From SAR202 cluster bacterium bin22 (GTDB lineage: Bacteria > Chloroflexota > Dehalococcoidia > Lucifugimonadales > UBA3495), in NCBI GenBank assembly GCA_002238505.1, contig MPMM01000002.1:310001-374000 (forward strand): DNA of 64,000 bases, in the 5' to 3' direction. The position numbers and the translations under genes were made by a program. Each line of letters starts with the position of its first letter. Position 1 is the first letter of the stretch. This document shows, piece after piece, positions 5,984 through 57,042 of the stretch. The notes beneath the pieces were generated by a model. It was not told the origin of the DNA. It saw only the letters and a program-made list of their open reading frames with translations, and ran no database searches.

Positions 5984-8900
5984 TCAGTCCGTCAAATTAG
6001 TCACGGTGACTATCACCGCCAGTTCTCTCTCGTTCCCCTGCTCATCGGCAGCGACTACCGTCACATTGTAAACGTTGTCCTCGCCGTCATCGCCGGGCGC
6101 TTCGTAGTCGGGCGGGTCGGCAAAGGCCAATACTCCGGCCTCGCTGATAGTGAATGCGCCAGCATCGTCGCCCCGCAGCGACCAGGACACATCCTCTCCC
6201 TCCGGGTCGGTGGCCCGGTAGGTGTACAGGTCTGCCGTGCCGTTCTCCTGGTAGGCGAAGGTGTCGGTGCTGTTGCTCCGGAACTCGGGCGCCTCGTCCA
6301 CCGGCGTCACCGTCACCGTCACTTCCAGGGAACCATAGTTCCTGCCGTCATAGGCTCGGACCGTGGCCAGGTAAATGTTGTCCCGGTTGGAGTCGGCGCG
6401 CCGTTCGTCATCGGGAGGATTGCGGAAGGACAGTTCGCCATCTTCGTTGATGGTAAAGTCGCCGCCGTCGGTGCCGGTGACGCTCCACCGGGTGATGTCG
6501 CTTCCCTCCGGGTCAGTGGCGGAGTAGGTGGAAAGGACGGCGGTGTGGTTTTCCGGCACGGTAATGGCGGTATTGGAACCAGTTTCCGCCACCACCGGCC
6601 CCTCGTTCACGTCAGTTACCGTGACCACCACGTCAAAGGTTCCCCGATTGGAGTTGGCATCGGTGGCCACAATGGTCACCTGGTAATCGTTGTCACCGAT
6701 GCGCGGCGGACTCTCGTAGTCCGGGGAAGCGCTGAAGGTGAGGACGCCGGATTCGCTGATGCCAAAGCGGCTTCCGTCCGTCCCTTCCACTGTCCAGGCG
6801 AAGTCGTCACCCTCGGGGTCGGTGGCTCGGTAGGTGTACAGGCGGGTGGTGACCGGAGTGTTTTCCCCGAAGCTCAGGGAGTCCCGACCGGTGATGACCG
6901 GGCCTTCGTTGTCTGCGGTGACGGTGATGGTGACGTCGTAACTGCCGTACACGCTGCCGTCGTAGGGGCGGATGGTCACCAGGTAAACGTTGTCCCTGTT
7001 CCCGTCGTCGGGCCGGTCGTGGTCGGGCGGATTCCTGAACTTGAGGTCGGCGGAGAAAGGGCCTCCCTCCTGGCCGGTGTCAGTGATGGTGAAGTCGCCG
7101 CTGTCGGCCCCAACCAGGGTCCAGCGGCTGACGCCGGAACCCTCGGGGTCGGTGGCGGTGTAGGTAGCCAGGACCTGGTCAAAGTTTTCATCTACGGTGC
7201 GGCTGTCCAGCCCGCTCACCTCCGGCCCCTCGTTGACCGCGGTGACGGTTACGGTGGCGTTCAGGGTTCCCTCGTTACTGCCGTCAGAGGCCACCACCGT
7301 GATGTCATAGACGTTGTCTTGGTCGGCGTCGGCAGGTATCTCGTGGTTGGGAGCGCTGCTGAAGAACAGCTGACCTCGTCCGCTGCTGTCCGGCGTGATG
7401 GTAAAGTCTCCTCCGTCCGTGCCGCGCACGGACCAGGCAATCTCCGTCCCCAGGTCCATGTCCCGGGCGGTGTAGGTGGAGAGGCGCGTATCAGTGGCGG
7501 TGTTCTCCCTGAAGGACAAACTCACCGTCCCCGAGACCACCGGGTCCGATTCGTTAGTATCGGTGACGGTCACCGTCACGTCGAGGGAGCCATAGGTGCC
7601 GCCGTTGTAGGCCCGCACCGTCACGAGGTACTCATTGTCCCGGTTGGAGTCGGCCGGGCGGTCGTAGTCCGGGACGTTGCGGAAGGTCAGCTGGGATGAG
7701 TTGGCCCCGGTGCTGGTGATGGTAAAGTCCCCGGCATCGGAACCCGCCAGCCGCCAGCTAGTTACCTCGGCGGTTGGATCCTCCGGGTCACGGCCCGTGA
7801 AGGTGGCGCCAGTCAGGCTCCCGCCCTCAACCACGGTGTAGGCGGCAGTCCCCGTAATCTTCGGCCCTTCATCTAATTCAGTGACAGTGACGGTGACAGC
7901 CAGGCTGGCGCTGCGACCGCCGCTGTCGGTGGCGATGACCGTCACGTTGTACTCGTTATCTCCACCCACATCCCCGGGACTCTCATAGTCGGGTGGTTCC
8001 CTGAACATCAGGCCGTTCCGGTCGTTGAATTCAAAACGGTTGTCGTCAATCCCTCCCACAGTCCAGGAAATCTCGTCGTCCTTGTCCTGGTCGGCAGCGC
8101 TGTAGGTGTAAATTGCGGACGTGCCCTCCTCCCGGTAGGTGTGCTCGGTGCGGCTGCCGCTGCGAATGACCGGATCATGCTCATTAATGTTGGTCACGGT
8201 GACAACCACATCCAGATTACCGTAGGTGCGCCCGTCGTAGGCTCGCACGGTGACCAGGTACTCGTTGTCCCGATTCGAGTCGGCAGGCCGGTCAAAGTCC
8301 GGGGTGTTGCGGAAGGTCAATTCCCCGTCTTCACTGATCAAGAAGTCCCCGCCGTCGCTGCCGGAAAGAGACCAGCGGGTTATTGACTGGCCCTCCGGGT
8401 CGGAGGCGGTATAGACGACATTGGACAGGTTGGTATTCTCCTGCACGGTTATAGACTGTTGGCCCGACACCACCGCCCCCTCGTTCTGGTCGGTGACGGT
8501 AACCACTACAGGGAATTCTCCGGTGTTGCCCTGGGAATCCCTGGCCTGGATGGTGACCAGGTATTGGTTGCCGTCAGTGCCGGAGCCACCGGGGCTGTCA
8601 AAATTCGGGGGCGAGGAGAAGGTCAGGACGCCCCGGACCCGGCTGTCGGTGGTGATGGTAAAGTCGCTGGCGTCCAGCCCTCCCAGGCCCCAGGTGAAGT
8701 CCTCGCCCTCCTGGTCCACGGCGCTGTAGGTGTAAAGGGTTGTGGTGGTGGGCGTATTCTCCCGGAACGAGAGGGCGTCCCGACCGGTAATTCCGGGAGG
8801 CTCATTGACTGGATTGACGGTGACTGTCACGTCATGAGTGGCGTAGAAGGTTCCGTCGGAGACCTGAACGGTGAACTCATAGACGTTGTCCCGGTTGGAG

Positions 8901-11900
8901 TCGGCCGGCCGCTCGTGGTCCGGAATATTGCGGAAGGTCAGGACTCCGCTGTCGCGGTCAATGATGAAGTCGCCACTGTCTGTTCCGGTAAGCCGCCACT
9001 GGGGCTCGACGGTCAGGGCGCCCTGGCCTGTGGAGGAATAGGTTGCCAGGGTCCCCTCAAGATTTTCGTCCCGGGTAAGGCTCGTTGGACCGGAAATCTC
9101 ACTAACGTCGTTCACCGTCACCGTCACGTCGAAACTGCCGTACACGCGGCCGTCGAAGGCCCGGACAGTGACCTCGTAAACATTATCGCGGTTGGCGTCG
9201 GCGGGACGCTCGAAGTCCGGCAGGTTGCGGAAGGTCAGGACCCCCGTCTGACGGTCTATCAGGAAGTCGCCTCCGTCGCGCCCCGAAGTGCTCCAGGTTA
9301 TGGTGGCGGTGACACCAATGGTCGCCTCGGGGTCGGTGGCAGTAAAGGCAGCGCCGGGCAGGTCCTGGTTCTCGCTGACGGTGAAGGCGGCAGTCCCCGC
9401 CACCTCCGGCCCTTCGTTCTGTTCGGTGACAGTGATGGCGACGTCCAGCGTGCCGCGGTTATCCCCGTCCGAGGCCACCACCGTAATCTCGTACACGTTG
9501 TCCGCGTTGCTGTCCCCGGGCCGCTCAAAGTCCGGCGGACTGCTGAAGGTGAGGATACCCTCGGCAATGGCGAAGTCGTTTCCGTCGTCCCCTTCCACCG
9601 TCCAGGTGAACACAGTGTTCAGGTCGTCGTCCATTGCCCGGTAGGTGTAGAGACGGATGTCCGTTGTGGTCCCTTCCCTGAAGGACAGTGTCTCCCGTCC
9701 CGTGACCACCGGATCGTGCTCGTTGATGCCCGTAACCTCCACCGTGATGTCCAGGTTGCCGTAGTACCTGCCGTCATAGCCCCGTACCGTCACCTCGTAC
9801 AGATTGTCCCGGTTGCTGTCGGCTGGCCGGTCGTAGTCAGGGATGTTGCGGAAGGTCAGAATGCCGGTGACCTGATCAATGACAAAATCGCCGCCGTCTC
9901 GCCCCGACAGGCTCCACCGGGGATATACGGAACGCCCGTCCTTGGCGTCGGTGGCCGTGTAGGTGCCCAGGGCCTGGGCGATGTCGTAGTTCTCCACAAA
10001 AGTGTAGGATGTCCTGCCCGCGATTACCGGCCCCTCGGGCTGTTCGGTGACGGTGACGACGGCATCCACCGTATCCCGCAGCCCCCGGCTGTCCGTCGCC
10101 ACCACGGTGATGTGGTACACATTGTCTTCATCTTCGTCCACGGGCTGCTCAAAGTCGGGCAGGAGGCGGAAGCCCAGGACGCCGTTGTAGATTGCGAAGT
10201 CGCCACCGTCCTCGCCTTCCACCGACCACTGGATGCTGTCCCTCTCGCCCTGGTCCTGGTCGGTGGCCCGGAAGGTGTAAAGAATGGAGGGCGTGTTCTC
10301 CCGCTGGGTGAACTGGGTCCTGCTCTTGGTGGTAATGACCGGGGCCTCGTTGACTTCCGTTACCGTCACCAGCAGGGGTTCTTCCAGCATCCCGTAGGCC
10401 CGTCCGTCGTAAGCCCGAACAATGACCTCGTACACATTGTCCCGGTCGGAATCGGCGGGGCGTTCGTAGTCCGGCGGGTAGCGGAACCTCAGTTCGCCCA
10501 GGTCGCTGACGACAAAGTCACCGCCGTCCCTACCCGTGGTACTCCAGCGGTAGATTCCCACCCCGGTATTTTCCGGATCGGTGGCGGTATAATCGGCCAG
10601 GACCACGGTGTCGGCGGTGTTTTCGGGCACGGTGGTGGTGGCGGAGCCCTCCAGACTTATGGTGGGTCCCTCGTTCAGGTCTGTCACGGTGATGGTGAAA
10701 CTCACCCCGTCGGAATTGCCGGTGCCATCAGCGGCCACCACCGTGAGTTCGTAAACGTTGTCCCGGTTGGCGTCCACCGGATTCTCAAAGTCCGGCGGGC
10801 TGCTGAAATTCAACACTCCCCGGCCGCTGCTGTCGGTGGTGATTGTGAAGTCTCCGGCATCCGTCCCCTCCCGCGACCAGGTAATGGTATCCCGCTGCGG
10901 GTCGCTGGCGCTGAAGGTATAGACGGTGCGGGTGTCGTTCTCCCGATAGGTGGCAGGGGGCCTGCGGGTGCTGATCGTTGGCTCCACTCCTTCATTGTGG
11001 TTGGTGACCGTGATGGTGAAGGACACCCGGTCCGAGTTGCCGTCCTCGTCGGTGGCCACCACCGTCAGTTCGTAAACATTGTCCCGGTTGTCGTCCACCG
11101 GATCCTCAAAGTCCGGTGGGCTGTTGAAGGTCAGGACACCCCGTCCGCTGTCGTCCTTAGTCAGAGTAAAGTCTCCCGCATCATCCCCTTCCAACGTCCA
11201 GGTTATTTCCTGACGCTGCGGATCACTGGCGCTGAAGGTGTAAACGGTGCGGGTTTCGTTTTCCCGGTACGTTGTGGGCGGTCGGCGAGTGCTCATAGTC
11301 GGCTCCTCGCCCTCGTTGTGGTTGGTGACCGTCACCGTCACCTCCAGCCTGGAGGTGTTCGACTGGGGGTCTCTCGCCTGGATGGTGACGTCGTACACGT
11401 TGTCGCGGCCTGAATCCCCGGGAAGGTCAAAGTCGGGCGGACTGTTTTCGTCAAAGGAGAACCGTCCCTGTTCATCAAAGGCAAAGTGGCTTCCATCCGC
11501 GCCCTCCGCCGACCACGTGACCGTCTCCCCTTCGGGGTCCGTGGCCCGGAAGGTGTACAGGGTGGAGGTTCGGTTCTCCTGCTGGGTGAACTTGATCCGG
11601 CTTGTGGTGGTGATCACGGGCGGTTCATCCACCGGGGTCACCGTCACCGTCTGCACTTCCTCCAGGCTACCGGTGTACCGGCCGTCCGATGCCCGGATAG
11701 TCACCTCGTACACATTGTCCCGATCGGAGTCCGCTGGCCGCTCGTAGTCCGGCACGTTCCGGAACATAAGCTGCCCCAGGGCGTTCATGACGAAGTCGCC
11801 GCCGTCCCTGCCCGTGGTGCTCCACTGGGTAATCTTGACCGTGGGCCGCTCGGGGTCCGTGGCGGTGTAGGTGGCCAGGACCCGGGTGGTTTCGGTGTTC

Positions 11901-14900
11901 TCCGGCACGCTGCCTGGGGCGTTGCCCTGTCGGGTGATTACCGGTCCCTCGTTGACCTCGGTCACCGTAACCGTCACTGCCAGGCCGTCAACGTTGGACT
12001 GGGGGTCCCGGGCCTGGACTGCGATGTTATAGACATTGTCTCCGCCCGTATCCCCGGGGCTGTCAAAGTCCGGTTCATTGGTGAAGGACAATACTCCGCT
12101 TTGGGCATCAATGGTAAAGTGGCTGCCGTCCTCTCCCGCCACCGACCAGGTTACGTCCCCGCCCTCCGGGTCGGTGGCCCGGTAGGTGTACAAATTCTGC
12201 ACCAGGTTTTCCCGCTGGGTAAAAGCGGTTCTGCTGCCCCGGTTGAACTCCGGGGGTTCATCGACGTCGGTGACGGTGACAGTTACCAGCAGTGAACCGG
12301 TGTTCCTGCCGTCGGACGGCCTCACCTCCACCAGGTATTCGTTGCGGTGGGAACCCGACCCGGCTGGCCGCTCGAAATCCGGCAGATTGCGGAAGTAGAG
12401 GGTGCCTCCCTGGGTAATGAAGAAATCGCTGCCGTCCCGTCCTCCCAGGTTCCAGCGGGCCACGTTCAGCCCCTCCGGGTCGGTAGCGGTATAGACGGCA
12501 TTGGAAAGGTTGCTGTTCTCGCCAATGGTAAAGGTGGTGGGCCCCGATACCTGCGGTCCCTCGTTCACATCGGTCACCGTCACCGTCACCGGAAGAGACG
12601 CGGTGTTGGGTGGGCTGCTGTCATCGTTGACCTGGATGGTCACTTGGTAAATATTGTCGCTGTCCGAATCCGCCCGGGCTTCAAAGTCCGGCGGGCTGTT
12701 CTCGTCAAAGGAGAACTCGCCACGCTCGGTGATGGCAAAGAACCTGCTGTCCGGACCGCCCAGTGACCACGTGATAGTGCTGCCCCCCTCCGGGTCGGTG
12801 GCTCGCCAGGTGTACAGGCGGGTTATCCGGTTCTCCTGCTGGGTAAATTCGGTCCTGCTGGTGGTCGTGATGGTGGGCGGTTCGTTCACCGCCGTCACTG
12901 TCACCATCACCTCCAGCAAGCCGTAGTACCGGTCGTCGGACACCTGCACGTTAAAGACGTACTCGTTGTCCCGGTTGGAGTCCGCGGGCCGCTCGTAGTC
13001 AGGAGTGTTCCGGAAGGTCAGTTCTCCATCCTCGTTAATCAGGAAGTCCCCGCCGTCGGTGCCCGTTAGCCGCCAGGCAGGGTCCACCGTCAGGTCGCCC
13101 CGTCCAGTGGCGGTGTAGGTGGCCAGGATGCCCTCAACGGCCTCTGCTCGGCTCAGGGTGGCCGCTCCGGTAATCTCAGCCACGTCCCCCACCGTCACCG
13201 TGACCGGGTGGGAACCGTAGTACCTGCCGTCGTAGGGCCGTACGTCCACCTCGTAAACGTTGTCCCGGTCCGAGTCGTCGGGCCGTTCAAAGTCTGGCGA
13301 TCTGCGGAAGGTCATCAGCCCGTCGTTGGTGATGGTGAAGTCTCCCCCGTCCCGGCCGCCCAAAGCCCAGCGGGTTACGTCGCCGTCCTCTGGGTCTGCG
13401 GCGGTGAAGGAAGCACCCGCCCAGTTTCTGTTTTCCTGGACGGTGAAGGAGTCCCCGCCCGAAGTTACTTCCGGGCCCTCGTTGACATCAGTGACTGTGA
13501 CGGTGACTGGCAGGGAGGCGGTGTTGGGCGGGTTGCTGTCATCGCTTACTTGAATGGTCACGTCGTAAACGTTGTCGCTGCCCGAGTCCGCTGGCTGTTC
13601 AAAGTCTGGGGCATTGTTCTCATCAAAGGAGAACTCGCCCCTTTCATTGATTGCAAAGAACCTTGCATCTGTCCCGCCCACCGACCAGGTCACGGTGGAA
13701 CTGCCCTCCGGGTCCGTTGCCCTGTAGGTGTAGAGGCGGGATGTGCGATTCTCCGGATGGCGCATAGCCGTTGCCGAACTGCTGGTGGTGGTAATGGTGG
13801 GCGGTTCGTTCACCGGGGTCACTTCCACCGTCACCTCGTAATACCCGAAATACCGCCCGTCGGAAGCCCGCACCGAGAAGGTGTAGATATTGTCCCGGTT
13901 GGAGTCGGCTGGCCGCTCGTAATCCGGCGTATTGCGGAACCGCAGGTCGCCGTCCGGGTTCATCACAAAGTCCCCGCCGTCCGTCCCTGAGGTGCTCCAG
14001 CGGGTGATGTCGGCGGTGGTGTCCTCGGGATCGGTGGCGGTGAAGCTGGCCAGCAGCGTGGAAATGCTGTAATTCTCAGGTACGCTGCTGGGCGCGCTGC
14101 GTACGGGAGAAATCTCCGGCCCCTCATTCACCTCGGTCACCGAGACCGTCACGTCCAGGCTGGCACGGTTGCTGTCGTCATCGGTGGCCTGAATGGTCAC
14201 GTCGTAAACATTGTCGCTGCCCGAGTCTGCCGGCTGTTCAAAGTTGGGGGGATTGTTCTCATCAAAGGAGAACTCGCCCCTTTCGTTAATTGCGAAGAAC
14301 CTGGCATCTGTCCCGCCCACCGACCAGGTCACCGTGGAACTGCCCTCCTGATCCGTTGCGCGGTAGGTGTACAGGCGGGATGTCCGGTTTTCCGGCTGCC
14401 TGAGCGCCGTGGCCGACGTGCTGGTGGTGGTAATAGCGGGGGGTTCGTTGACCGGGGTGACTTCCACCGTCACTTCGTAATATCCGTAATACTGCCCGTC
14501 GGAAGCCCGCACCGAGAAGGTGTAGATGTTGTCCCGGTTGGAGTCGGCTGGGCGCTCGTAATCCGGCGTGTTGCGGAACCGCAGTTCGCCGTCGGGGTTC
14601 ATCACAAAGTCCCCGCCGTCCGTACCCGAGGTGCTCCAGCGGGTGATGTTGGCGGTAGTGTCCTCGGGATCAGTGGCAGTGAAGCTGGCCAGCAGCGTGG
14701 AAATGCCGTAATTCTCAGGTACGCTGCTGGGCGCGTTGCGTACGGGAGAAATCTCCGGCCCCTCGTTCACGTCGGTGACGGTGACTGTGAAGGCCAGCCG
14801 GTCCACGTTGCCATCTGTATCCCGGGCCTCCACCACGAGGTCGTAATCGTTCTGCGAGTCGTTGTCCGCTGGAGCCTCATAATCCGGTGTGTTTTGGAAG

Positions 14901-46954: not shown

Positions 46955-48805
46955 TTAACGGGGCATGTGAGTCTCAATCCACCGCCGTTCCTCTTCGTCA
47001 TCGTCGAAGTAGATAAAGCGGTGGAACATCTTCGGTTGCTCCCGGGTCCTTCGCAGGTCCTCCCTGAAGGCCCGGGTCCCCTGAGCATCGGCCTTCTGGG
47101 ACAAGGGGTCAATCACCACTCCGTACTCGGAACGGGCCGCCTCCAGGGAAACAAAGCCGCCCCTGACGTCCTTCTCAACAAGATCGACGTCCCGTTCCAG
47201 CGGGTCGCCCCAGCCCCCGCCGCCGGCGGTGTACAGCCTGACCAGGTCTCCCGCCACCCAGCGGTTATCGTCAGAGAAGGGGCGGATATCTCGCTCACCC
47301 TGCTGCCCCGGGTTGAGCAAGACTCGGGACGTGCCCCCCGCCTTCCCGCCGGCAATGCCCCAGGCCGGAAAGCGGTGATTCTCCACCCGCAGTCCGAAGG
47401 TCCCCTCCGGGGCCAGCAGCCGAACATCCCGGATGATGCCGCAGCCACCCCGGTACTTCCCTGGCCCCCCTGAATCGGGGTTGATGGCGTAACGCTCCAT
47501 CCGCAGCGGGTACTCCATGTCCATGAACTCGGCCGGGTAGTTCTCGTTGTGGCGACTGTAAACGGCGTAGATGCCATCGGCCTGCGGTCGCGCTCCATGC
47601 CCTACCGCGATGCCGTCGGTGCACAGCAGCCACTCCCCGGTCCCGGCGTCCTTCATACGCCAGTAGGCAATCACATACACCGCCATGGCCGCCATGGCAT
47701 CGCCCCCGTTGGCTCTGGCTACCACCGCCCGCACTGCGTTCTTCAGCTTGGTGAAGGTGTGGGCTCGGCAACCCAGCGCCGCCGGCCACTGGGGCTGCAG
47801 AATGCTTCCCGGCCGCAGCTTTACATCGTCAACCGCCGCCAGCAGACCCTGGTTCATGGTCAGCGAAGGGTCATACTGGTGGAAGTGTTGCCCAAGGTAC
47901 GCCCCCAGGGTTCCGTCGCTGGCGATGAAGTTGATGGACCCGGGAGCCTGGTCATCGCTGGCAGTCGCGTCCAGAACAATGTCGTCCCCCGACCGCGTCA
48001 GTTCCAGGTGGAAGGAGTGCCATTCGTCTCCCACTCCGTCATTGTCCAGGTAATCCCTCGTGGAGTAGGAACCTTCCGGAATCGTCTCCAGGGTCTTCCG
48101 GCGAATGAAGTCCGCAGTCTCCTGCTGGTCCTGGCGAAGGGCAGCCAGCGCGGTCTCCTTGCCGAAGCGCCGGAAGATCTCCAGAACCCGGTCTTCCGCC
48201 CGCTGCGCCGCCGCCATCAGCGCCCTGGAATCTCCTTCCAGCAGGTCCGGATAGCGGGAGTTGCGAAGGATAATGCGGTAGGCCTCGTCGTTCAGCTTGC
48301 CCTGGTCCACAATCCGTATGGGCGGGACCAGGGTGCCGTCGTGGAAGATCTCCGTGTTGGCCGGCCCGATGCTTCCGGGGCGCGACCCGCCCAGGTCCCA
48401 GAAATGGGCAAAGGAGTGACAGTAGGCCACCAGTTCCCCTTCAAAGAAGACAGGTGCAATGAACACCATATCGGGCGTGTGGCTGATGCTGCCTCCGGAT
48501 ATGTATGGGTCGTTGTACCAGTACACATCTCCCCGGTGCATGGACTCCGGCGGATAGTGACTCCACACGCACCCCATAATGTCGCTGCCCATGGTCTCGC
48601 CGTAGATCTCCTGCCCCAGGCTGTCCAGGAAACTGACCGTATAGTCCTTCTTCTCCCTGATGAAAGCCGACATGGCCGTCCGCTCGATTATCAACTCGCA
48701 CTCCAGCCGAGCCGAACGCAGCGACCCGCGCACAAGCTGGAGGGTAATCGGATCTACGCTTGCTTGTGTTCCTTCGTCCCCCTTCATCCACGGGTTGCTC
48801 GACAT
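46955..48805 (-). CDS. hyuB: Hydantoinase B / N-methylhydantoinase B-type subunit
   Basis: A 616-residue HyuB-family protein, partner of HyuA in ATP-dependent opening of hydantoin or 5-oxoproline-type rings. Typical segments are DPITLQLVRGSLRSA near the N-terminus, MGSDIMGCVWSH, GDVYWYNDPYISGGSISHTPD (conserved metal/substrate region), GGSRPGS and the C-terminal GGPGKYRGGCGIIRDV and AGGGGWGDPLERD. The ATG at 48805 has AGGAGG nine bases upstream; a GTG at 48814 directly abuts that site and is rejected. It follows hyuA by 18 bases, so the two are co-transcribed and probably form the enzyme complex. The exact substrate (hydantoin, N-methylhydantoin, oxoproline, acetone-like) is unknown. Confidence 0.9.
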   Translation of the reverse strand: MSSNPWMKGDEGTQASVDPITLQLVRGSLRSARLECELIIERTAMSAFIREKKDYTVSFLDSLGQEIYGETMGSDIMGCVWSHYPPESMHRGDVYWYNDPYISGGSISHTPDMVFIAPVFFEGELVAYCHSFAHFWDLGGSRPGSIGPANTEIFHDGTLVPPIRIVDQGKLNDEAYRIILRNSRYPDLLEGDSRALMAAAQRAEDRVLEIFRRFGKETALAALRQDQQETADFIRRKTLETIPEGSYSTRDYLDNDGVGDEWHSFHLELTRSGDDIVLDATASDDQAPGSINFIASDGTLGAYLGQHFHQYDPSLTMNQGLLAAVDDVKLRPGSILQPQWPAALGCRAHTFTKLKNAVRAVVARANGGDAMAAMAVYVIAYWRMKDAGTGEWLLCTDGIAVGHGARPQADGIYAVYSRHNENYPAEFMDMEYPLRMERYAINPDSGGPGKYRGGCGIIRDVRLLAPEGTFGLRVENHRFPAWGIAGGKAGGTSRVLLNPGQQGERDIRPFSDDNRWVAGDLVRLYTAGGGGWGDPLERDVDLVEKDVRGGFVSLEAARSEYGVVIDPLSQKADAQGTRAFREDLRRTREQPKMFHRFIYFDDDEEERRWIETHMPR

Positions 48806-48823
48806 GCTGTTCACCCTCCTGTA

Positions 48824-50878
48824 CTAGACCGGCTGCAAAATGCAGTTGCCATAGTCGTCAATGCGGGCCTTCCAGCCTGGTTCAATTACGACAGTAGAAT
48901 CGACGTTCTCCAGAATAGCTGGTCCCCCAATGGTGGAACCAGGAACCAGTCGGTCCCGCCGGTAAATGTCGCAGGCGACAAATCCGCCTGCGTCTTCAAA
49001 GAAGACCTCGCGTTGCCCCGGCGAAGCATCCGCTGGCCCCTCCAGACTCCGGGAGTAGATGGCTCTCCCGGCAGGTTCCAGGTGGCCTCTTGCCGTCACA
49101 CGAAGGGTGACAAACTCCACGGGCTGGTCCAGGGAGAAGCCGAACAGGCGATGGTGCTCCTGATGAAACCGTTGGATGGTGGCTTCCAGCGAGTCCTCAT
49201 CCACCATGACTCCGGCCAGTTCTACGGTCACCTCGAATCCCTGGTGGGCGTAGCGCAAGTCTGCGGACCGCGCCAACTCCTGCAGGTCCCGGGAAACTGC
49301 TTCCGAATCCAGCCAGTTGGTTGCTTCTGCTTCCAGGTCCCGGTAGATGCTTTGCATCCCGTCAGCATCGTAGTCCGGAAGCTTCCGGATGGAAGTCCTG
49401 GCGTAGTCATTCTTGAAGTCGGCCACCAGCAGCCCGTAGGCCGATGCAACTCCCGGGTTGGGTGGAGCGATCACGGTCGTCATTCCCAGCAGCCGAGCCA
49501 CCGCAATGGCGTGCATTGGACCGGCCCCACCGAAGGCCACCAGGGCGAAGTCCCGAGGATCGTAACCCCGCTCCACGCTGACGTTCCGAATAGCTCCCAC
49601 CATGTTGTTGTTGACTATCTGGAGAATGCCGTGGGCGGCTCGGTTCAGGTCCAGCCCCAGGGGAGCGGCGATCCTGTTCCGAATGGCCGTGCGTGCGGCT
49701 TCGGCGTCGAGGGTCAAAGACCCGCCCGCGATGCTCTCGTCGATCCGGCCCAGGATCAGGTTGGCGTCGGTCACCGTGGGCTCGGTCCCTCCAGCGCCAT
49801 AACAAACCGGGCCGGGAACGGCCCCGGCGCTGCGGGGCCCCACGTTGAGATTGTTTGCCGCTGTCAACCACGCGATGCTGCCGCCGCCCGCGCCGATGGT
49901 GGCAATGTCCAGCATTGGCAGCTGTACCGGCCAGTCTCCCAGCTCTGCGTTCAGCGTAACTGTCGGAGTACGTTGGTTGACCAGGGACACGTCGGTGCTG
50001 GTACCTCCCATATCAAAGGAATTACAGTCCTGGACCCCGGTGTTGCTGGACACATCAATGGCCGCCATCACCCCGGCCGCGGGGCCTGAAAGGGCGGTGT
50101 GAACCGGCTGGCGACTTGCCGTCTCTGTGCCAATAACACCCCCGTTTGACTTCATAATCAACAGGGGAGCCTCTATACCCATCCTCCGCAACTCCCGGTC
50201 CAGGTTCTCAATGTAGTGGCTGACCCGTGGCATTACATAAGCGTTAAGGACGGTGGTTATGGTCCTCTCGTACTCGCGGAATACAGGCAGCACTTCGGAG
50301 GAGAGGGAAAGGTGGGCATCCGGGAACGCCTCATTCACCAGTTCTCGGACCCGCAATTCGTGCTTTGGGTTTGCGTAGGAATGGGTCAACGATATAGCGA
50401 TCGACTCAATGCCCTTGTCGCGAAAATGGCCTGCCGCCCTTATTACGGCCTCCTCGTCCATTGTTTCGATGACGGAACCGTCAAATGAAGTGCGCTCCGA
50501 TATCTCCAGCACCCTTTCCGGAGGAACCGGACGTTCCGGCTTAACCCATACGTGCGGGTTGGCCATTCTCGCCATGTTGTGACGTCCTATCTCCAGCACA
50601 TACTTGAACCCCTCCGACACCAGGACTCCCACCTCCGTTCCAGTGCCCTCCAGGATGGCGTTGGTGGCTATGGTTGTGCCGTGAAAGATGCGTCTAACCT
50701 GGGAGCAGCTTACTCCCTCCTGTTCCAGTATGCGGGAAACGCCGGATATGAAGCCCCGGGAGGGGTCTTCGGGAGTCGAGGGAGTCTTGACCAGGCGGCA
50801 ATCTCCCGTAGAAAGGTTCAACAGGACAATGTCAGTAAAAGTTCCGCCTACATCTATCCCCAGGGCGAATTCTTCCAT
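48824..50878 (-). CDS. hyuA: Hydantoinase A / N-methylhydantoinase A-type subunit
   Basis: A 684-residue HyuA-family protein with an actin-like ATPase fold. IDVGGTFTDIVLL is the phosphate-1 motif, HGTTIATNAILEGTGTEVGVLV the conserved Hydant_A_N segment, MKSNGGVIGTETASRQPVHT and LSGPAAGVMAA the Hydantoinase_A core, and SFDMGGTSTDVSLV the second phosphate loop. VAFGGAGPMHAIAVARLLGM is the family's C-terminal hallmark. It would activate the substrate with ATP before ring opening with HyuB. AAAGGAACAAG precedes the ATG. The 288-base region upstream separates it from the divergent Rieske gene and should hold promoters for both. Confidence 0.92.
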   Translation of the reverse strand: MEEFALGIDVGGTFTDIVLLNLSTGDCRLVKTPSTPEDPSRGFISGVSRILEQEGVSCSQVRRIFHGTTIATNAILEGTGTEVGVLVSEGFKYVLEIGRHNMARMANPHVWVKPERPVPPERVLEISERTSFDGSVIETMDEEAVIRAAGHFRDKGIESIAISLTHSYANPKHELRVRELVNEAFPDAHLSLSSEVLPVFREYERTITTVLNAYVMPRVSHYIENLDRELRRMGIEAPLLIMKSNGGVIGTETASRQPVHTALSGPAAGVMAAIDVSSNTGVQDCNSFDMGGTSTDVSLVNQRTPTVTLNAELGDWPVQLPMLDIATIGAGGGSIAWLTAANNLNVGPRSAGAVPGPVCYGAGGTEPTVTDANLILGRIDESIAGGSLTLDAEAARTAIRNRIAAPLGLDLNRAAHGILQIVNNNMVGAIRNVSVERGYDPRDFALVAFGGAGPMHAIAVARLLGMTTVIAPPNPGVASAYGLLVADFKNDYARTSIRKLPDYDADGMQSIYRDLEAEATNWLDSEAVSRDLQELARSADLRYAHQGFEVTVELAGVMVDEDSLEATIQRFHQEHHRLFGFSLDQPVEFVTLRVTARGHLEPAGRAIYSRSLEGPADASPGQREVFFEDAGGFVACDIYRRDRLVPGSTIGGPAILENVDSTVVIEPGWKARIDDYGNCILQPV

Positions 50879-51166
50879 CTTGTTCCTTTCAGGGAGCTTG
50901 CTGGTTTCAGGTAAAGAGTCGCTTCGAGGGGGTTATACCACCCATGTGTCAGCCCGACAAGCTCTCTATGATTAATGCCTTGAACTGCCTGCCTGGGTCT
51001 AAAGAAACTATGAAGGCTTTGCAAGACATAGGCATTTTGATTTGGTACGTGGTAAAGTGGAAATATAGTCTGATACCGGTTCTGACGCTGAATTACTCAA
51101 GCCTTTGAGGCACAGACCCACGAGTCGGTCCTTTTGCCCAGCCACTTCTGTGCGGAGTCCCGATCT

Positions 51167-52228
51167 ATGAGAAGTGCAAACCAGTCGCTTCCCTCCCCAT
51201 TTCCCGAGGGCTGGTACTTTGTCGCAAGCCGCCAATCGGTCCAGAAGGCCGGCCTTCTTCAAAAGACCTGGATGGGTGAAAGCATCGTTGTATGGTGCGA
51301 CCGGGAAGGCAACGTTTGCGTCGCCGAGTCCTTTTGTCCTCATCTGGGTTCCGACATGGGCCCGGAAACGGGGGGGCGGGTTTGTGAGGGCAGGCTGGTC
51401 TGTCCTTTTCACGGCTTCCAATACGATACCACCGGCCAGTGCGTTGCAACTCCCTTTGCCAGCCCACCCAGGAACGCCAGGCTAAGGGTTTTCGAGACTC
51501 GTGATATCGCTGGCCTCATTTTCGCGTGGTGGGGCATTGAGGGACGGGAACCCCAGTGGAGCCTGCCGGATCAAGAGCCCGACCAGGCCGGCTGGACGGG
51601 CCTGGAAATCAACACTCTGCGATTTCCCGGACATCCCCAGGAGACCACGGAGAACTCGGTTGACTTGGCTCACCTTCGGTATGTCCACGGCTACGACAGC
51701 GTGACTCGCATTGGCTCTGCTTTCGTTGACGGGCCGCTCCTTGAAAGTGACTTTGACTTCAGGTCCCGCCGCACCGTGGGCAGATTCATACCGTTTACTA
51801 TGGATATTTCCGCCAGGACCCGGATATTTGGTCTGGGTTACTCCTATGTGGAGATACGGGAGCACTCCATTGGCATGAATATGCGCCTCTGGGTGTTGAC
51901 CACTCCCGTGGATGGAACACTGATTGACATGTCGCTGGCCTCGCAGGTGGAAGAAATTCGCCACACCCGGCGTCGCGCTTCCGGCCTTGGAATGCTTCCC
52001 GTCAGGATGCGTGCGCCCCTGGTCAACAAGTTTGTCGCCGCCATGCAGAAGCATGATGTCCTGCAGGATGTGGTCATCTGGAGACGCAAGCGCTACCAGT
52101 CGCGACCACGCCTCTGTCGGTCCGATGGCGAAATAATGCCCTTCCGGGCCTATTGCGCCCAGTTCTATCCCGATCTGAACAATGTAGTGGATGAGACTCG
52201 CGCTGCCGCGGAAATCTCTTCCACTTAA
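51167..52228 (+). CDS. Rieske non-heme iron oxygenase (KshA / cholesterol 7-desaturase-like)
   Basis: A 353-residue oxygenase. The Rieske [2Fe-2S] domain has C57-P-H59 and C79-P-F-H82 (CPHLGSDMG ... CPFHGFQYD). The catalytic iron site is N163-S-V-D166-L-A-H169-L-R-Y-V-H174, the spacing of 3-ketosteroid 9-alpha-hydroxylase (KshA) and the DAF-36/Neverland sterol desaturases rather than ring-hydroxylating dioxygenases. It needs a separate reductase, which is not next to it. The ATG at 51167 has GGAG nine bases upstream; the frame extends to a TTG at 51134. A lipid-type RND transporter follows 173 bases later and a P450 after that. A steroid or isoprenoid-lipid substrate is plausible but unproven. 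Confidence 0.87.
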   Translation: MRSANQSLPSPFPEGWYFVASRQSVQKAGLLQKTWMGESIVVWCDREGNVCVAESFCPHLGSDMGPETGGRVCEGRLVCPFHGFQYDTTGQCVATPFASPPRNARLRVFETRDIAGLIFAWWGIEGREPQWSLPDQEPDQAGWTGLEINTLRFPGHPQETTENSVDLAHLRYVHGYDSVTRIGSAFVDGPLLESDFDFRSRRTVGRFIPFTMDISARTRIFGLGYSYVEIREHSIGMNMRLWVLTTPVDGTLIDMSLASQVEEIRHTRRRASGLGMLPVRMRAPLVNKFVAAMQKHDVLQDVVIWRRKRYQSRPRLCRSDGEIMPFRAYCAQFYPDLNNVVDETRAAAEISST

Positions 52229-52401: not shown

Positions 52402-54879
52402 ATGAGCAAGTTTCTAGGTTGGCTGAGTTGGCTGGTGACGGCCAGACCCATCGTAACAATTCTCATCCTCATCTTGATCACTGTGCTGCTGGGCGCCGGC
52501 GCGGTTCAGCGCGTCCCTCCTCCCGATACAGCGGCAACACTGCCACAGGGCAGCGCCGTGGCCGTGGCTTTGCAGGAAATCAAGGAAAGTTTCCGGGAAT
52601 CCGGCGAAGCCAGCGTGGTTACCTTGCTTTTCAGAGGCAATGCCATTACGCCGGAAGGCCTGGCCCAAATGGACGCCTTGATCGTGCAGGTGGTCAGCGA
52701 CCCCGACGTACAGGCCTTGCTCGCACCGGCAAACCCGGTGATTGCTCCCTCTTCCCTCTATCAGGCCCTGCTCCAGACAGGAAGCTTCGAAACTGTAACC
52801 CAGGCCGATATCGACGCGGCACAGGGTCCTCCCGAAATTATGGGCGCCCTTGATGCCCTGACAGGCACCGATACCGATGGTACTACCCCGGTTTCAATTG
52901 CCACTATTCGCCTTCAGGACACAGGTGACGAGCGACTGCCAAGCATCGAACGAAACATCGATAAACTGGCCCGGGCCAGCCAGGGACCGTTAACGGTCAG
53001 CACCGTCTCTCCCATAATCATTGAGGACGAATACAAGAAGGCCACCGAAGAGGGAATGGCCCCCCTGGTGGGACTGGCCTTTCTCTTGATTGCGGCTCTG
53101 ATCCTGCTGTTCATGAGGACTATCTCAGATCTGGTGCTTACCCTGGCGGGCCTGCTGATGTCCATCGTCTGGATCGTAGGCGTTGAGGGATGGCTGGGAC
53201 CGAAGGCCCTGGGCCTCACTGGCCCACCCAACTCCCTGACCACAATGGTGCCGATCATCGTCATCGGCCTCACGGTGGATTACGCGATACAGATTGTCTC
53301 TCACTACCGGGAGCAGCGTAACGCCGGTGAAGCGGTTCTGGATTCAGTCCGCATGGGCCTGCGAAACGTAACCGTTCCCCTGGTGCTGGCTGCAGTCACG
53401 ACGATAGTGAGTCTGCTGGCCAGCCTGTTCTCGCCCATAGAAATTGTGGGTGATTTCGGCATTATCGCCGGTTTGGGCGTAGGCATGAGCCTGATCGTCA
53501 TGCTGACCCTGGTCCCGGCAGGACGAACAATCATTGATCGACGACGGGAGAGGCGAGGCACACTGAAGCCGCCCAATCCTATTGCCAATGCGCTGCCCGG
53601 TATCGGAAAGGCTGCAGAACTGCTGGGGCGAAGCATTACGCGCGCCCCGGGACCCTACCTGGCAGGTGTGATTATTTTGACCGCCGGACTGGGTTACGCC
53701 GCCACGGGCCTGGAGTCGGAGTTCAGCATTCGCGACATCCTGCCGAGGAACGGCGAGTTGTTGAAGGATATGGACACCCTGGACGCCGCCGTTGGGGGTT
53801 CCACGGAGATGGCCACAGTCCTGGTGAAGGCCGAGATCACCGAAACCCGCACCCTTCTGAACCTTCGCGACTTTACTTCAGCCTTCGAGGATGAACGGCA
53901 ACGGCCTCAAGCGGCGGCCGGCCCAATCCATTCCTCCTTCGATCTGCTGGCAAATGACTGGACCACCGATAGCGGAATCCCCGGGGACAAATACGATCTG
54001 GAGCTTGAAGACTTGTTCCACCATGCTACAGCATCGGTGCAATTGGACCCGGTCCTGATGCAGCAGTTCGTGGACAAACTTGAAGCAATGGATCCCGAGT
54101 TTCGAAGGATCGTGGTCAACGACCCTGACGGCGTAGATACATTACTGCTGCAATTCCCAACCTTCTCCGGTGATCCTTCCAAGACAAAGGTCCTGCAAGA
54201 GGAACTTGAAGGACTGTGGTTTGGCCGGGACGAGGATCTTACTGCCACCTCCGGCAGCATAATTTCCGTCACGGTTACCGACGCCATTACCGAACGGCAG
54301 ACCGAGGCCATAACGACCACCATCATCGCGGCACTGGCAGTACTTGCCGTTTTCTTCTGGATAACGCTGCGTCAGCCGGCTCTGGCGATAATTGCGGTTG
54401 GCCCAATTGTCCTGGTGCTTATCTCTGTGCTGGGTACCATGGCGTTGTTGGGCATCCCCTATACGATCATTACTTCCATTATCACGGCTTTGTCTATCGG
54501 TATTGGCGTGGACTACACCATCCACATGATCCATCGCTATCGGGAAGAGTACTCGCAAACTCGTGACCCCGAGCGGGCGGCGATTCGGACGTTGGGGACT
54601 ACAGGCTCTGCCCTGCTTGGCTCTGCGCTTACCACGGCCCTGGGACTGGGGGTGCTGGTTGCGTCTCCCCTGGCGGCGTCACAGCAGTTTGGATTTACGG
54701 CGGCTATAACCATCGCCTATTCGCTGTTGGTATCAATTATCGTTGTCCCGGCGGCAATGACATTCTGGGGCGCCTACCAGAACATGCGACTGCGGTCCAT
54801 GGTGCAACGCTGGTCAGACGAACTGGACATGCAAATAGAAGCGGTGCACGCCCGCCACGAGGAGGGGCAAGAGGCCTGA
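52402..54879 (+). CDS. MMPL-type RND transporter
   Basis: An 825-residue membrane transporter of the MMPL/HpnN branch of the RND superfamily, whose members move lipids, hopanoids or similar hydrophobic molecules. There is one N-terminal span (IVTILILILITVLLGAGAV), a large extracytoplasmic domain, and five or six spans with the conserved IGLTVDYAIQIVSHYREQR motif. The second half repeats the plan: extracytoplasmic domain, then ALSIGIGVDYTIHMIHRYRE. The two DYxIxxxxxYRE motifs carry the proton-relay acids. AAAGG lies upstream of the ATG. A strong intrinsic terminator follows at 54931. It sits between the Rieske oxygenase and the P450 fusion. The cargo is unknown. Confidence 0.9.
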   Translation: MSKFLGWLSWLVTARPIVTILILILITVLLGAGAVQRVPPPDTAATLPQGSAVAVALQEIKESFRESGEASVVTLLFRGNAITPEGLAQMDALIVQVVSDPDVQALLAPANPVIAPSSLYQALLQTGSFETVTQADIDAAQGPPEIMGALDALTGTDTDGTTPVSIATIRLQDTGDERLPSIERNIDKLARASQGPLTVSTVSPIIIEDEYKKATEEGMAPLVGLAFLLIAALILLFMRTISDLVLTLAGLLMSIVWIVGVEGWLGPKALGLTGPPNSLTTMVPIIVIGLTVDYAIQIVSHYREQRNAGEAVLDSVRMGLRNVTVPLVLAAVTTIVSLLASLFSPIEIVGDFGIIAGLGVGMSLIVMLTLVPAGRTIIDRRRERRGTLKPPNPIANALPGIGKAAELLGRSITRAPGPYLAGVIILTAGLGYAATGLESEFSIRDILPRNGELLKDMDTLDAAVGGSTEMATVLVKAEITETRTLLNLRDFTSAFEDERQRPQAAAGPIHSSFDLLANDWTTDSGIPGDKYDLELEDLFHHATASVQLDPVLMQQFVDKLEAMDPEFRRIVVNDPDGVDTLLLQFPTFSGDPSKTKVLQEELEGLWFGRDEDLTATSGSIISVTVTDAITERQTEAITTTIIAALAVLAVFFWITLRQPALAIIAVGPIVLVLISVLGTMALLGIPYTIITSIITALSIGIGVDYTIHMIHRYREEYSQTRDPERAAIRTLGTTGSALLGSALTTALGLGVLVASPLAASQQFGFTAAITIAYSLLVSIIVVPAAMTFWGAYQNMRLRSMVQRWSDELDMQIEAVHARHEEGQEA

Positions 54880-55014: not shown

Positions 55015-57042
55015 TCAGTAGCTCAGTTCGTGCCTCTTCTCGGCAATCAGGAATTTCAGCTTCTTGTTTGGCTTCATTGATGGTATCGGGCTGTACTTAA
55101 GCTTGTAATCGTCCGGAGAGACTTTGATATTGAAGTAGTGGGCCACCATCAATACGTTTACCGCTAACTGCAATTCCATCCACCTCGATCCAAGGCAGGT
55201 ATGAGTGCCAAGGCCGTAGGGCGCATATCCCGGGTGGAGGTGCTCATTTCGGGGCGGCAGGTATCGGTCAATATCGAATTTGGTCGGCTCAGGGAAAACG
55301 TCCTCCATGTAATGGGACGCCGTTTGGGCAATGTAGAGGCGCGACCCCACGGGCAGTTCAAAGTCCTCTACAACACACGAGTTCATAACGTTGCGGATGG
55401 ACAGGGGCACTATGGGGTACATTCGCAGGCATTCCATCAGGAACCGGTGCGTTACGTCGATGGTGGACGGGTTCAAGTCTTGCCCGTCCGGGTCTCCGTT
55501 GGTGAACAGGGCGTCAGCTTCGCTCTGAATCCGCTCGTAAATTTCGGGTTGAGAGGCCATGGCGTACAGCGTGAAACTGAATGCGTCCCCCAGGTACACA
55601 CTGGCAATCAACGCCGCCGCCAACGCAAACCTTAGATTTGACTCAGGTACAAACTGGGGATCACTGGCGTGAAGGCTGAGAATGTCGTCGGCCAGGTTCC
55701 TGGGGCTGTCCGCCCGCTGAGCAGGCGTATGGACTCCCTGCACGCGATCAAGAAGGACCTCCACGGCCTTGGCACGCCGCCGCATTCCCGGGGTTTTCAG
55801 CATAAACTTGGGAAGAGCCTTAATCACGTGCGTGACCAGCGCCCTTTCCTTATAAGTTGTAAGGTCGTCAAAGATATCCTGGGACTCCACGCTGACGAAA
55901 AGCGGTGATATTTGAGAGTTGATCATCCGCCGGCAAAGGTGCTTGGCGGAGTAGGCGTCTCCAACCTCCCACTCCGACATATACCTCTTGGCCTGGAAAT
56001 ACAACTGGTCCAGTTGTCCCGCCAGCCTGCCCCGGGAGTAGGCGGCCGACAGGGATTTCCGGAGCCGGAAATGGTCTGCGCCATCCAGCGAAGGCAACAC
56101 CCCGCTGGCGCCATAAACCTTCTCGAAATCACTAAAATAGTCCTTGGCTCTCAGGTACATTCGTCCCCGCCGGTGCACCCATTGGTTGGCGTCGGGCCCG
56201 GCGAGGAAGATCATGGGCTTGGATAAGGGCGGGCGAATCTGGAAGACCGGACCATATTCCTTTGCCAGGTCCGCCAGCAGTGCGGGAACGTTCCCGTCCC
56301 TGACGTGGGGATTGAAGATCAGCTTGCCCAGAGACACTGTTGGGATTCTCTTGGCCAGAGCTGATCGCCTGAAAAGGGCGCCGGCAATGTTCTGTGACAC
56401 TGCGGCGGCGATAGACCGTCCAATCAAGTCCAGATTGCAAAGAAATGCAATGCGCTCTTCCGCCTCATCGTCCAGCTGGAACATGAAGCGGAAAACATCG
56501 CAAGCATTTACGAGACATATAATGATACTGTCCCGGGGATCGGGGATTTCGTTGTTGAAGATAGCATTGCTGATGCGGGTCTTTACAAACTGCAGTCCGG
56601 AGCCTTCAGAAGCGCCGGCAAACAATTCGGAGCTACCCGTATTGCGGGCCAAGGTCCAAAACTCTCCGTCGTGATATTCGAGAATCCTTAGCTCTACCAG
56701 CCTGTCCAGGGTCAGGTCTATTACGTTCTCGGCCTGGGGGGCAAGCCGCTCAATCCAGTACTGAGCGTTTCTCCTGGTTGGTTCGCCTGCTATTTCCTCT
56801 AAAGTATTGTCCAGAGCGGGATTCCCGGTCGCGGTCTGGTCCAAAAGGAACAAGGAGGCCATGTCCGTATCTATGCGGGACAGAAGAGAAAGCTCGGCCA
56901 GCACGGCGCCAATTACGGCACAATTCAGGTCCCAACCCGGTACTTGATGGAAGTACCCGTTCTCTTCATTGAGTAGCGTCAGGACTAACTCTTCCGGCAA
57001 GCTCAGCCGATGAGTGGTGACGTCCGTTGCAGATGTAGTCAT
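55015..57042 (-). CDS. GPP34 (GOLPH3-like) domain fused to cytochrome P450
   Basis: A 675-residue two-domain protein. Residues about 12-225 match the GPP34/GOLPH3 fold: LSLPEELVLTLLNEENGYF, CAVIGAVLAELSLLSRI, FLLDQTATGNPALDNTLEEI, and LVELRILEYHDGEFWTL. In eukaryotes this fold binds phosphatidylinositol-4-phosphate; bacterial versions are poorly known. Residues about 235-670 are a cytochrome P450: NPHVRDGNVPALLADLAKEY, K-helix E537-C-L-R540, and heme loop PYGLGTHTC616LGSRW. The I-helix, usually AGxxTT, reads YLGDAFSFT, so the normal oxygen-activating threonine is replaced or shifted. No signal peptide is visible; membrane contact would be through the GPP34 domain. It converges on the MMPL transporter. 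Substrate is unknown. Confidence 0.85.
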   Translation of the reverse strand: MTTSATDVTTHRLSLPEELVLTLLNEENGYFHQVPGWDLNCAVIGAVLAELSLLSRIDTDMASLFLLDQTATGNPALDNTLEEIAGEPTRRNAQYWIERLAPQAENVIDLTLDRLVELRILEYHDGEFWTLARNTGSSELFAGASEGSGLQFVKTRISNAIFNNEIPDPRDSIIICLVNACDVFRFMFQLDDEAEERIAFLCNLDLIGRSIAAAVSQNIAGALFRRSALAKRIPTVSLGKLIFNPHVRDGNVPALLADLAKEYGPVFQIRPPLSKPMIFLAGPDANQWVHRRGRMYLRAKDYFSDFEKVYGASGVLPSLDGADHFRLRKSLSAAYSRGRLAGQLDQLYFQAKRYMSEWEVGDAYSAKHLCRRMINSQISPLFVSVESQDIFDDLTTYKERALVTHVIKALPKFMLKTPGMRRRAKAVEVLLDRVQGVHTPAQRADSPRNLADDILSLHASDPQFVPESNLRFALAAALIASVYLGDAFSFTLYAMASQPEIYERIQSEADALFTNGDPDGQDLNPSTIDVTHRFLMECLRMYPIVPLSIRNVMNSCVVEDFELPVGSRLYIAQTASHYMEDVFPEPTKFDIDRYLPPRNEHLHPGYAPYGLGTHTCLGSRWMELQLAVNVLMVAHYFNIKVSPDDYKLKYSPIPSMKPNKKLKFLIAEKRHELSY

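Follow-up and report, generated by a model that had tools for sequence, protein, structure and literature searches.

Sterol gene clusters have been described in Ircinia symbionts of 10 phyla (Kelly 2022, PMC9531527), and the in vitro products of sponge-symbiont sterol 24-C-methyltransferases (SMTs) range from 24-methyl to 24-isopropyl sterols (Brown 2023, PMC10070321), which makes sterols a chemically sensible substrate in this setting. In the main texts of both papers we found neither GPP34 nor the P450 analysed here mentioned. A P450 placed in a two-domain fusion and in a sterol context is likewise known from Methylococcus capsulatus, in which CYP51 is joined to a ferredoxin. The GPP34 fold, in turn, is found in GOLPH3, where W81, R90, R171 and R174 form the PI4P pocket (PMC4414131), in yeast Vps74, and in solo bacterial proteins such as SCO4440 of Streptomyces (PMC12402492).

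The locus described here lies in a 64,000-nucleotide stretch of the SAR202 cluster bacterium bin22 genome (the window, numbered from its first letter) and unites a GPP34 domain with a P450. With the systems of Brown 2023 and Kelly 2022 it shares the type of bacteria, SMT and ERG24-type genes, a Rieske-type oxygenase in the clusters and transfer across phyla; it differs from them in that the genome lacks OSC and squalene epoxidase. The fusion gene (55015-57042, minus strand) is a single open reading frame with an ATG start, encoding 675 residues arranged as a GPP34/GOLPH3 domain (residues 15-215; 56398-57000), a basic interdomain linker recognised by charge and pI computation (residues 217-248; 56299-56394) and a cytochrome P450 domain (residues 249-662; 55057-56298), all on the minus strand. 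The Pfam match to GPP34 (PF05719) scores 92 bits against a cut-off of 29.1 (E 7e-26) and covers profile positions 1-198 of 201, and that to p450 scores 115 bits against 22.8 (E 4e-33). Together with the profile, the ExxR motif (E537 and R540; 55423-55434, minus strand) and the heme-binding loop YGLGTHTCLG (residues 609-618 with Cys616; 55189-55218, minus strand) identify the C-terminal half as a member of the P450 superfamily, and E537, R540 and C616 are invariant across 91 aligned homologues. The earlier note on this DNA, which had proposed GPP34 in the N-terminal 220 residues and a complete P450 with ExxR and heme Cys616 behind it, is thereby borne out in its architecture; the loss in the I-helix, the island of sterol genes and the distribution over phyla reported below go beyond it.

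Both domains and the linker are under strong purifying selection, with dN/dS values relative to the nearest homologue (L003) of about 0.05 for GPP34, 0.07 for the linker and 0.05 for the P450. We reject the idea that two genes were joined by an error of sequencing or assembly, since about 80 other assemblies carry the fusion at 63-91% identity along its length, in nearly all cases as one frame. Eukaryotic contamination is rejected as well, since the contig is bacterial, carrying hydantoinase genes and, next to the fusion, genes that we take to be pheS/pheT, and since solo bacterial GPP34 proteins are the closest relatives of the GPP34 half. Searches of an open-access library returned nothing relevant on a fusion of GPP34 or GOLPH3 with a P450, and to the extent searched, GPP34-P450 has not been described as a conserved member of sponge-symbiont sterol clusters.

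Short query peptides, a method that finds close relatives only, were used to scan 84,980 species genomes; this yielded 149 relatives, of which the best 80 were analysed. These 80 share 63-91% identity with the window protein, in nearly all cases at full length, and belong to Chloroflexota, Pseudomonadota, Gemmatimonadota, Nitrospirota, Acidobacteriota, Actinomycetota, Latescibacterota and Binatota, with single bins of Verrucomicrobiota, Myxococcota and Bdellovibrionota; the fusion is present in bacteria of about ten phyla. Its tree requires 15 phylum-label changes against a minimum of 10 and contains well-supported mixed clades, as expected for gene transfer, a pattern that misbinned contigs can mimic. 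Among the 80, the bin names comprise 18 RHO, 4 COS and 1 IRC, initials that fit the sponges Rhopaloeides odorabile, Coscinoderma matthewsi and Ircinia ramosa sampled by Robbins et al. (PMC8163846), and 15 loci are from jk18x bins, which are Ircinia bins according to Kelly et al. (PMC9531527). A further 16 bins carry the names OX/CATOS, Plut, 277c/287ce and CO36386. The SB06xx (14), APA (4), p16x (3) and MPM/MPN (5) bins presumably stem from sponge projects. No recognisably free-living carrier was found by bin name among the best 80 of the 149 loci, and the carriers of checked origin are apparently marine-sponge symbionts. Because the nearest homologue comes from a RHO bin, a sponge origin of the window's genome is likely, too. 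One acidobacterial island (L071, about 6000-12500) holds two diverged GPP34-P450 fusions.

The solved sequence nearest to the P450 half is Methylococcus capsulatus CYP51 (E 2e-27, 98.9 bits, residues 253-651); among its structural neighbours, CYP51 and CYP46A1 rank level with BM3 and CYP170A1. Identity to CYP51 structures amounts to 14-19%, i.e. below the 40% expected at family level, and the G-x-H-T-S type I-helix signature is absent, so that a CYP51 orthologue is rejected. The I-helix AGHHTS of CYP51 aligns to A480-S-V-Y-L-G in the segment A480-S-V-Y-L-G-D486 (55585-55605, minus strand), where the acid position is Tyr483 and the Thr position is Leu (Val, Ile or Met in other members of the main fusion clade); Y483, G485 and D486 are invariant in 55 aligned main-clade members. 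The main clade thus lacks the acid/alcohol pair (A/G-G-x-D/E-T) of canonical monooxygenases, and it is also absent in the MAFFT alignment, in which the register differs by one residue. The Methylococcus enzyme, about 19% identical to the window P450, therefore differs in its I-helix (AGHHTS as opposed to ASVYLG) as well as in its partner (ferredoxin as opposed to GPP34). A distant fusion clade at 32-35% identity (L095-L098, in genomes G026, G020, G030 and G042) has retained the canonical I-helix (AGADTS or GMDTS), and the second fusion copy of L071 reads AGHYTG. The acid/Thr pair was thus most likely lost inside the fusion family. As the pair is missing, the chemistry of the fusion P450 may be unusual, and judged by its motifs the enzyme may catalyse an isomerisation, a dehydration, or a peroxide- or substrate-assisted oxidation.

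The same observations bear on the alternative that the P450 dispenses with O2 activation altogether and rearranges a lipid hydroperoxide, epoxide or endoperoxide, possibly of oxidised sterols or fatty acids, in the manner of CYP74, thromboxane synthase or prostacyclin synthase, in which case a redox partner would not be needed. In agreement with this, CYP74 enzymes work without O2 or a redox partner and deviate in the I-helix region (PMC10813956), the acid/Thr pair is replaced by Y-L in the main clade while the distant clade keeps it, and the genes that recur around the fusion include no recognisable reductase or ferredoxin. The feature shared with a CYP74-type hydroperoxide isomerase is the missing acid/alcohol pair only. 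The overall sequence of the fusion P450, however, is closest to CYP51. Moreover, bacterial redox partners are often encoded elsewhere, and some P450s lacking the I-helix Thr still oxygenate with help from the substrate. We consider the rearranging alternative rather unlikely. We note that the window's own genome also encodes a 484-residue P450-like protein (L190:1450-2904; G000:C10:103627-104991) with the heme loop MPFGITLGVNQEAA, which has no Cys at the expected place, and that 491-residue P450-like frames are present in sister genomes.

Of 53 loci that exceed 13 kb, 50 have at least one of five sterol/steroid-type genes within about 6 kb of the fusion, namely Rieske-KshA (43 loci), SMT (29), FAD oxidase (28), an MMPL transporter with a sterol-sensing domain (23) and an ERG24-type reductase (5), and this link holds across phyla despite different gene orders; the three remaining long loci (L032, L062 and L080) have none of the five. 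In the window, the conserved island genes are a Rieske non-heme iron oxygenase with a KshA_C domain (51134-52228, plus strand, start codon uncertain) and an MMPL/RND transporter with matches to sterol-sensing and Patched-type domains (52402-54879, plus strand), both convergent with the fusion in an arrangement that recurs in many Chloroflexota. The KshA 3-ketosteroid 9-alpha-hydroxylase is the best solved match of the Rieske protein (E 3e-24), with which it shares the KshA_C domain, and judged from its sequence the protein could equally be a sterol desaturase or demethylase. For the Rieske, MMPL and FAD genes, similarity to sterol families is confined to the domain level: the Rieske protein reaches 31 bits with the SdmA model (cut-off 600) and the transporter 23 bits with the BstA model (cut-off 1400), both far below. 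Hydantoinase B and A genes (46955-50878, minus strand) lie beside the Rieske gene and are not conserved island genes. A flavin amine-oxidase-type protein of 462 residues (L021:4443-5828 and 41 other loci), with an Amino_oxidase-type domain and LkcE as nearest solved relative, recurs as the FAD oxidase of the island and is a possible sterol oxidoreductase. The conserved sterol/steroid-type neighbours, along with a sterol 14-demethylase as nearest solved P450, lend support to the lipid substrate that the earlier note had suggested.

The link extends to whole genomes. In a set composed of the window's own genome and relatives, 13 genomes carry a sponge-clade fusion (at least 65% identity; two of the fusions are fragmentary), and a gene with Sterol_MT_C is present in 12 of the 13 as compared to 1 of 86 others (Fisher p about 2e-13, not corrected for kinship). 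ERG4/ERG24 scores over the cut-off in 10 of the 13, and in none of the 12 others tested. The own genome holds its SMT on contig C4 and an ERG24-type gene on contig C47, and the Sterol_MT_C domain of the former predicts side-chain alkylation activity. Exceptions are G089, where the fusion is present without an SMT gene, and the distant fusion clade within this genome family, whose genomes G020, G030 and G042 are without SMT; in G026 a short contig carries both fusion and SMT.

These associations also weigh on the possibility that the P450 belongs to another lipid or terpenoid pathway and merely hitch-hikes in a transferred block of sterol genes. The nearest curated P450 models are terpenoid ones (pentalenene oxygenase and albaflavenone synthase, at sub-threshold scores), CYP170A1 stands at the top of the structural list, though tied, and HpnN, a hopanoid transporter, also matches the MMPL neighbour, though below the cut-off. 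Since the link persists across phyla, through varied gene orders and at the genome level with SMT and ERG24, we judge such hitch-hiking to be unlikely.

Neither SHC/OSC (PF13243) nor squalene epoxidase (PF08491) was found in the own genome, and as this assembly (G000) is 97% complete in 58 contigs, the absence is strong, if not final. De novo sterol synthesis in the window's organism is rejected on these grounds, and the organism most likely tailors acquired sterols. Squalene epoxidase is likewise absent from all nine Chloroflexota sponge-clade carriers tested, and the readable cyclases of the other Chloroflexota carriers are SHC-type with DxDD. A cyclase match is absent from 15 of 30 carriers drawn from many phyla, and an OSC-like cyclase occurs in five Nitrospirota and one alphaproteobacterium, with VSDCTA in the two that were read. 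The role shared by the fusions is therefore better explained by tailoring than by full synthesis. As a separate observation, squalene epoxidase (PF08491) and oxidosqualene cyclase form a single open reading frame of about 1150-1410 residues (L171, L174-L178 and L186-L189) in sponge-associated Nitrospirota and an alphaproteobacterium (G101, G103, G117, G118 and G122; VSDCTA read in two), a possible reason for the length of the 'LSS' alignment in Kelly 2022 (PMC9531527).

The GPP34 half, modelled separately because the full-length model (pLDDT 77) returned P450 matches only, many of them at Z of about 33, reaches pLDDT 83. It has the same fold as GOLPH3 (Z 20.1, rmsd 2.5 Å over 196 residues) and yeast Vps74 (Z 18.5), the best unrelated fold being at Z 4.0, and a profile built from the first 230 residues of the family reaches GOLPH3 (E 5e-6) and Vps74. 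It is closest to solo bacterial GPP34, with 39% identity to the solo GPP34 of the same genome, and differs from such proteins and from GOLPH3 in being joined to an enzyme. At the PI4P-pocket positions only the tryptophan is kept (W81 corresponds to W37), whereas R90, R171 and R174 are replaced by I44, E105 and I108; the compared solo bacterial GPP34 proteins likewise miss at least two of the three arginines and keep at most R174. With a median pI of 4.4 and a net charge of -20, the domain is strongly acidic, and the linker is basic, its net charge ranging from +4 to +9 in the family with a median pI of 12. With the pocket arginines lost and the domain this acidic, a role as phosphoinositide reader is unlikely, and the phosphoinositide docking proposed in the earlier note finds no support. 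That the GPP34 half nevertheless recruits the P450 to the membrane by binding a phosphoinositide or another anionic lipid, for which the intact fold and the kept Trp81 equivalent can be cited, is highly improbable given the I, E and I at the arginine positions and the pI of about 4.4. Instead, the domain would dock on a protein, with the basic linker turned towards the membrane.

Based on these comparisons, we propose that the fusion is probably a GPP34-docked, membrane-associated sterol-tailoring P450 of a sponge-bacterial sterol island. The C-terminal heme-thiolate P450, related to bacterial CYP51, would act on a sterol or sterol intermediate. Its GPP34 domain would hold it at the cytoplasmic membrane, probably through contact with a membrane protein, comparable to the binding of cytosolic tails by GOLPH3, and the basic linker would help membrane placement without any reading of phosphoinositides. 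Because neither squalene epoxidase nor cyclase was found, the input of the pathway in the window's organism would be acquired sterols, from host or diet. The MMPL/RND transporter may import or move these, after which the SMT would alkylate them, the Rieske enzyme oxidise or desaturate them, the ERG24-type enzyme reduce them and the fusion P450 modify them at an unspecified position, an order that we infer. Points against sterol tailoring are the three long loci without the five neighbours, the SMT-less genomes G089 and, in the distant clade, G020, G030 and G042, and the domain-level nature of the Rieske, MMPL and FAD matches.

In a wider sense, and more tentatively, the family may represent an undescribed sterol-tailoring enzyme, i.e. 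a CYP51-related P450 that has lost its O2-activation pair, is docked by GPP34 and has been transferred between sponge symbionts in many phyla, of which several would remodel acquired sterols without de novo synthesis. Prokaryotic GPP34, whose role is barely known, would thereby gain a defined enzymatic partner. The bacterial share in unusual demosponge sterols, 24-isopropylcholesterol among them, which are read as the oldest animal biomarker, is disputed. An enzyme that travels with SMTs across symbiont phyla, often without a cyclase, speaks for the remodelling of acquired sterols by bacteria, for the testing of which the fusion represents a concrete gene, and if the proposal is true, the fusion could be a missing step toward sponge-type sterols, e.g. 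the side-chain alkylated ones, that serve as animal biomarkers.
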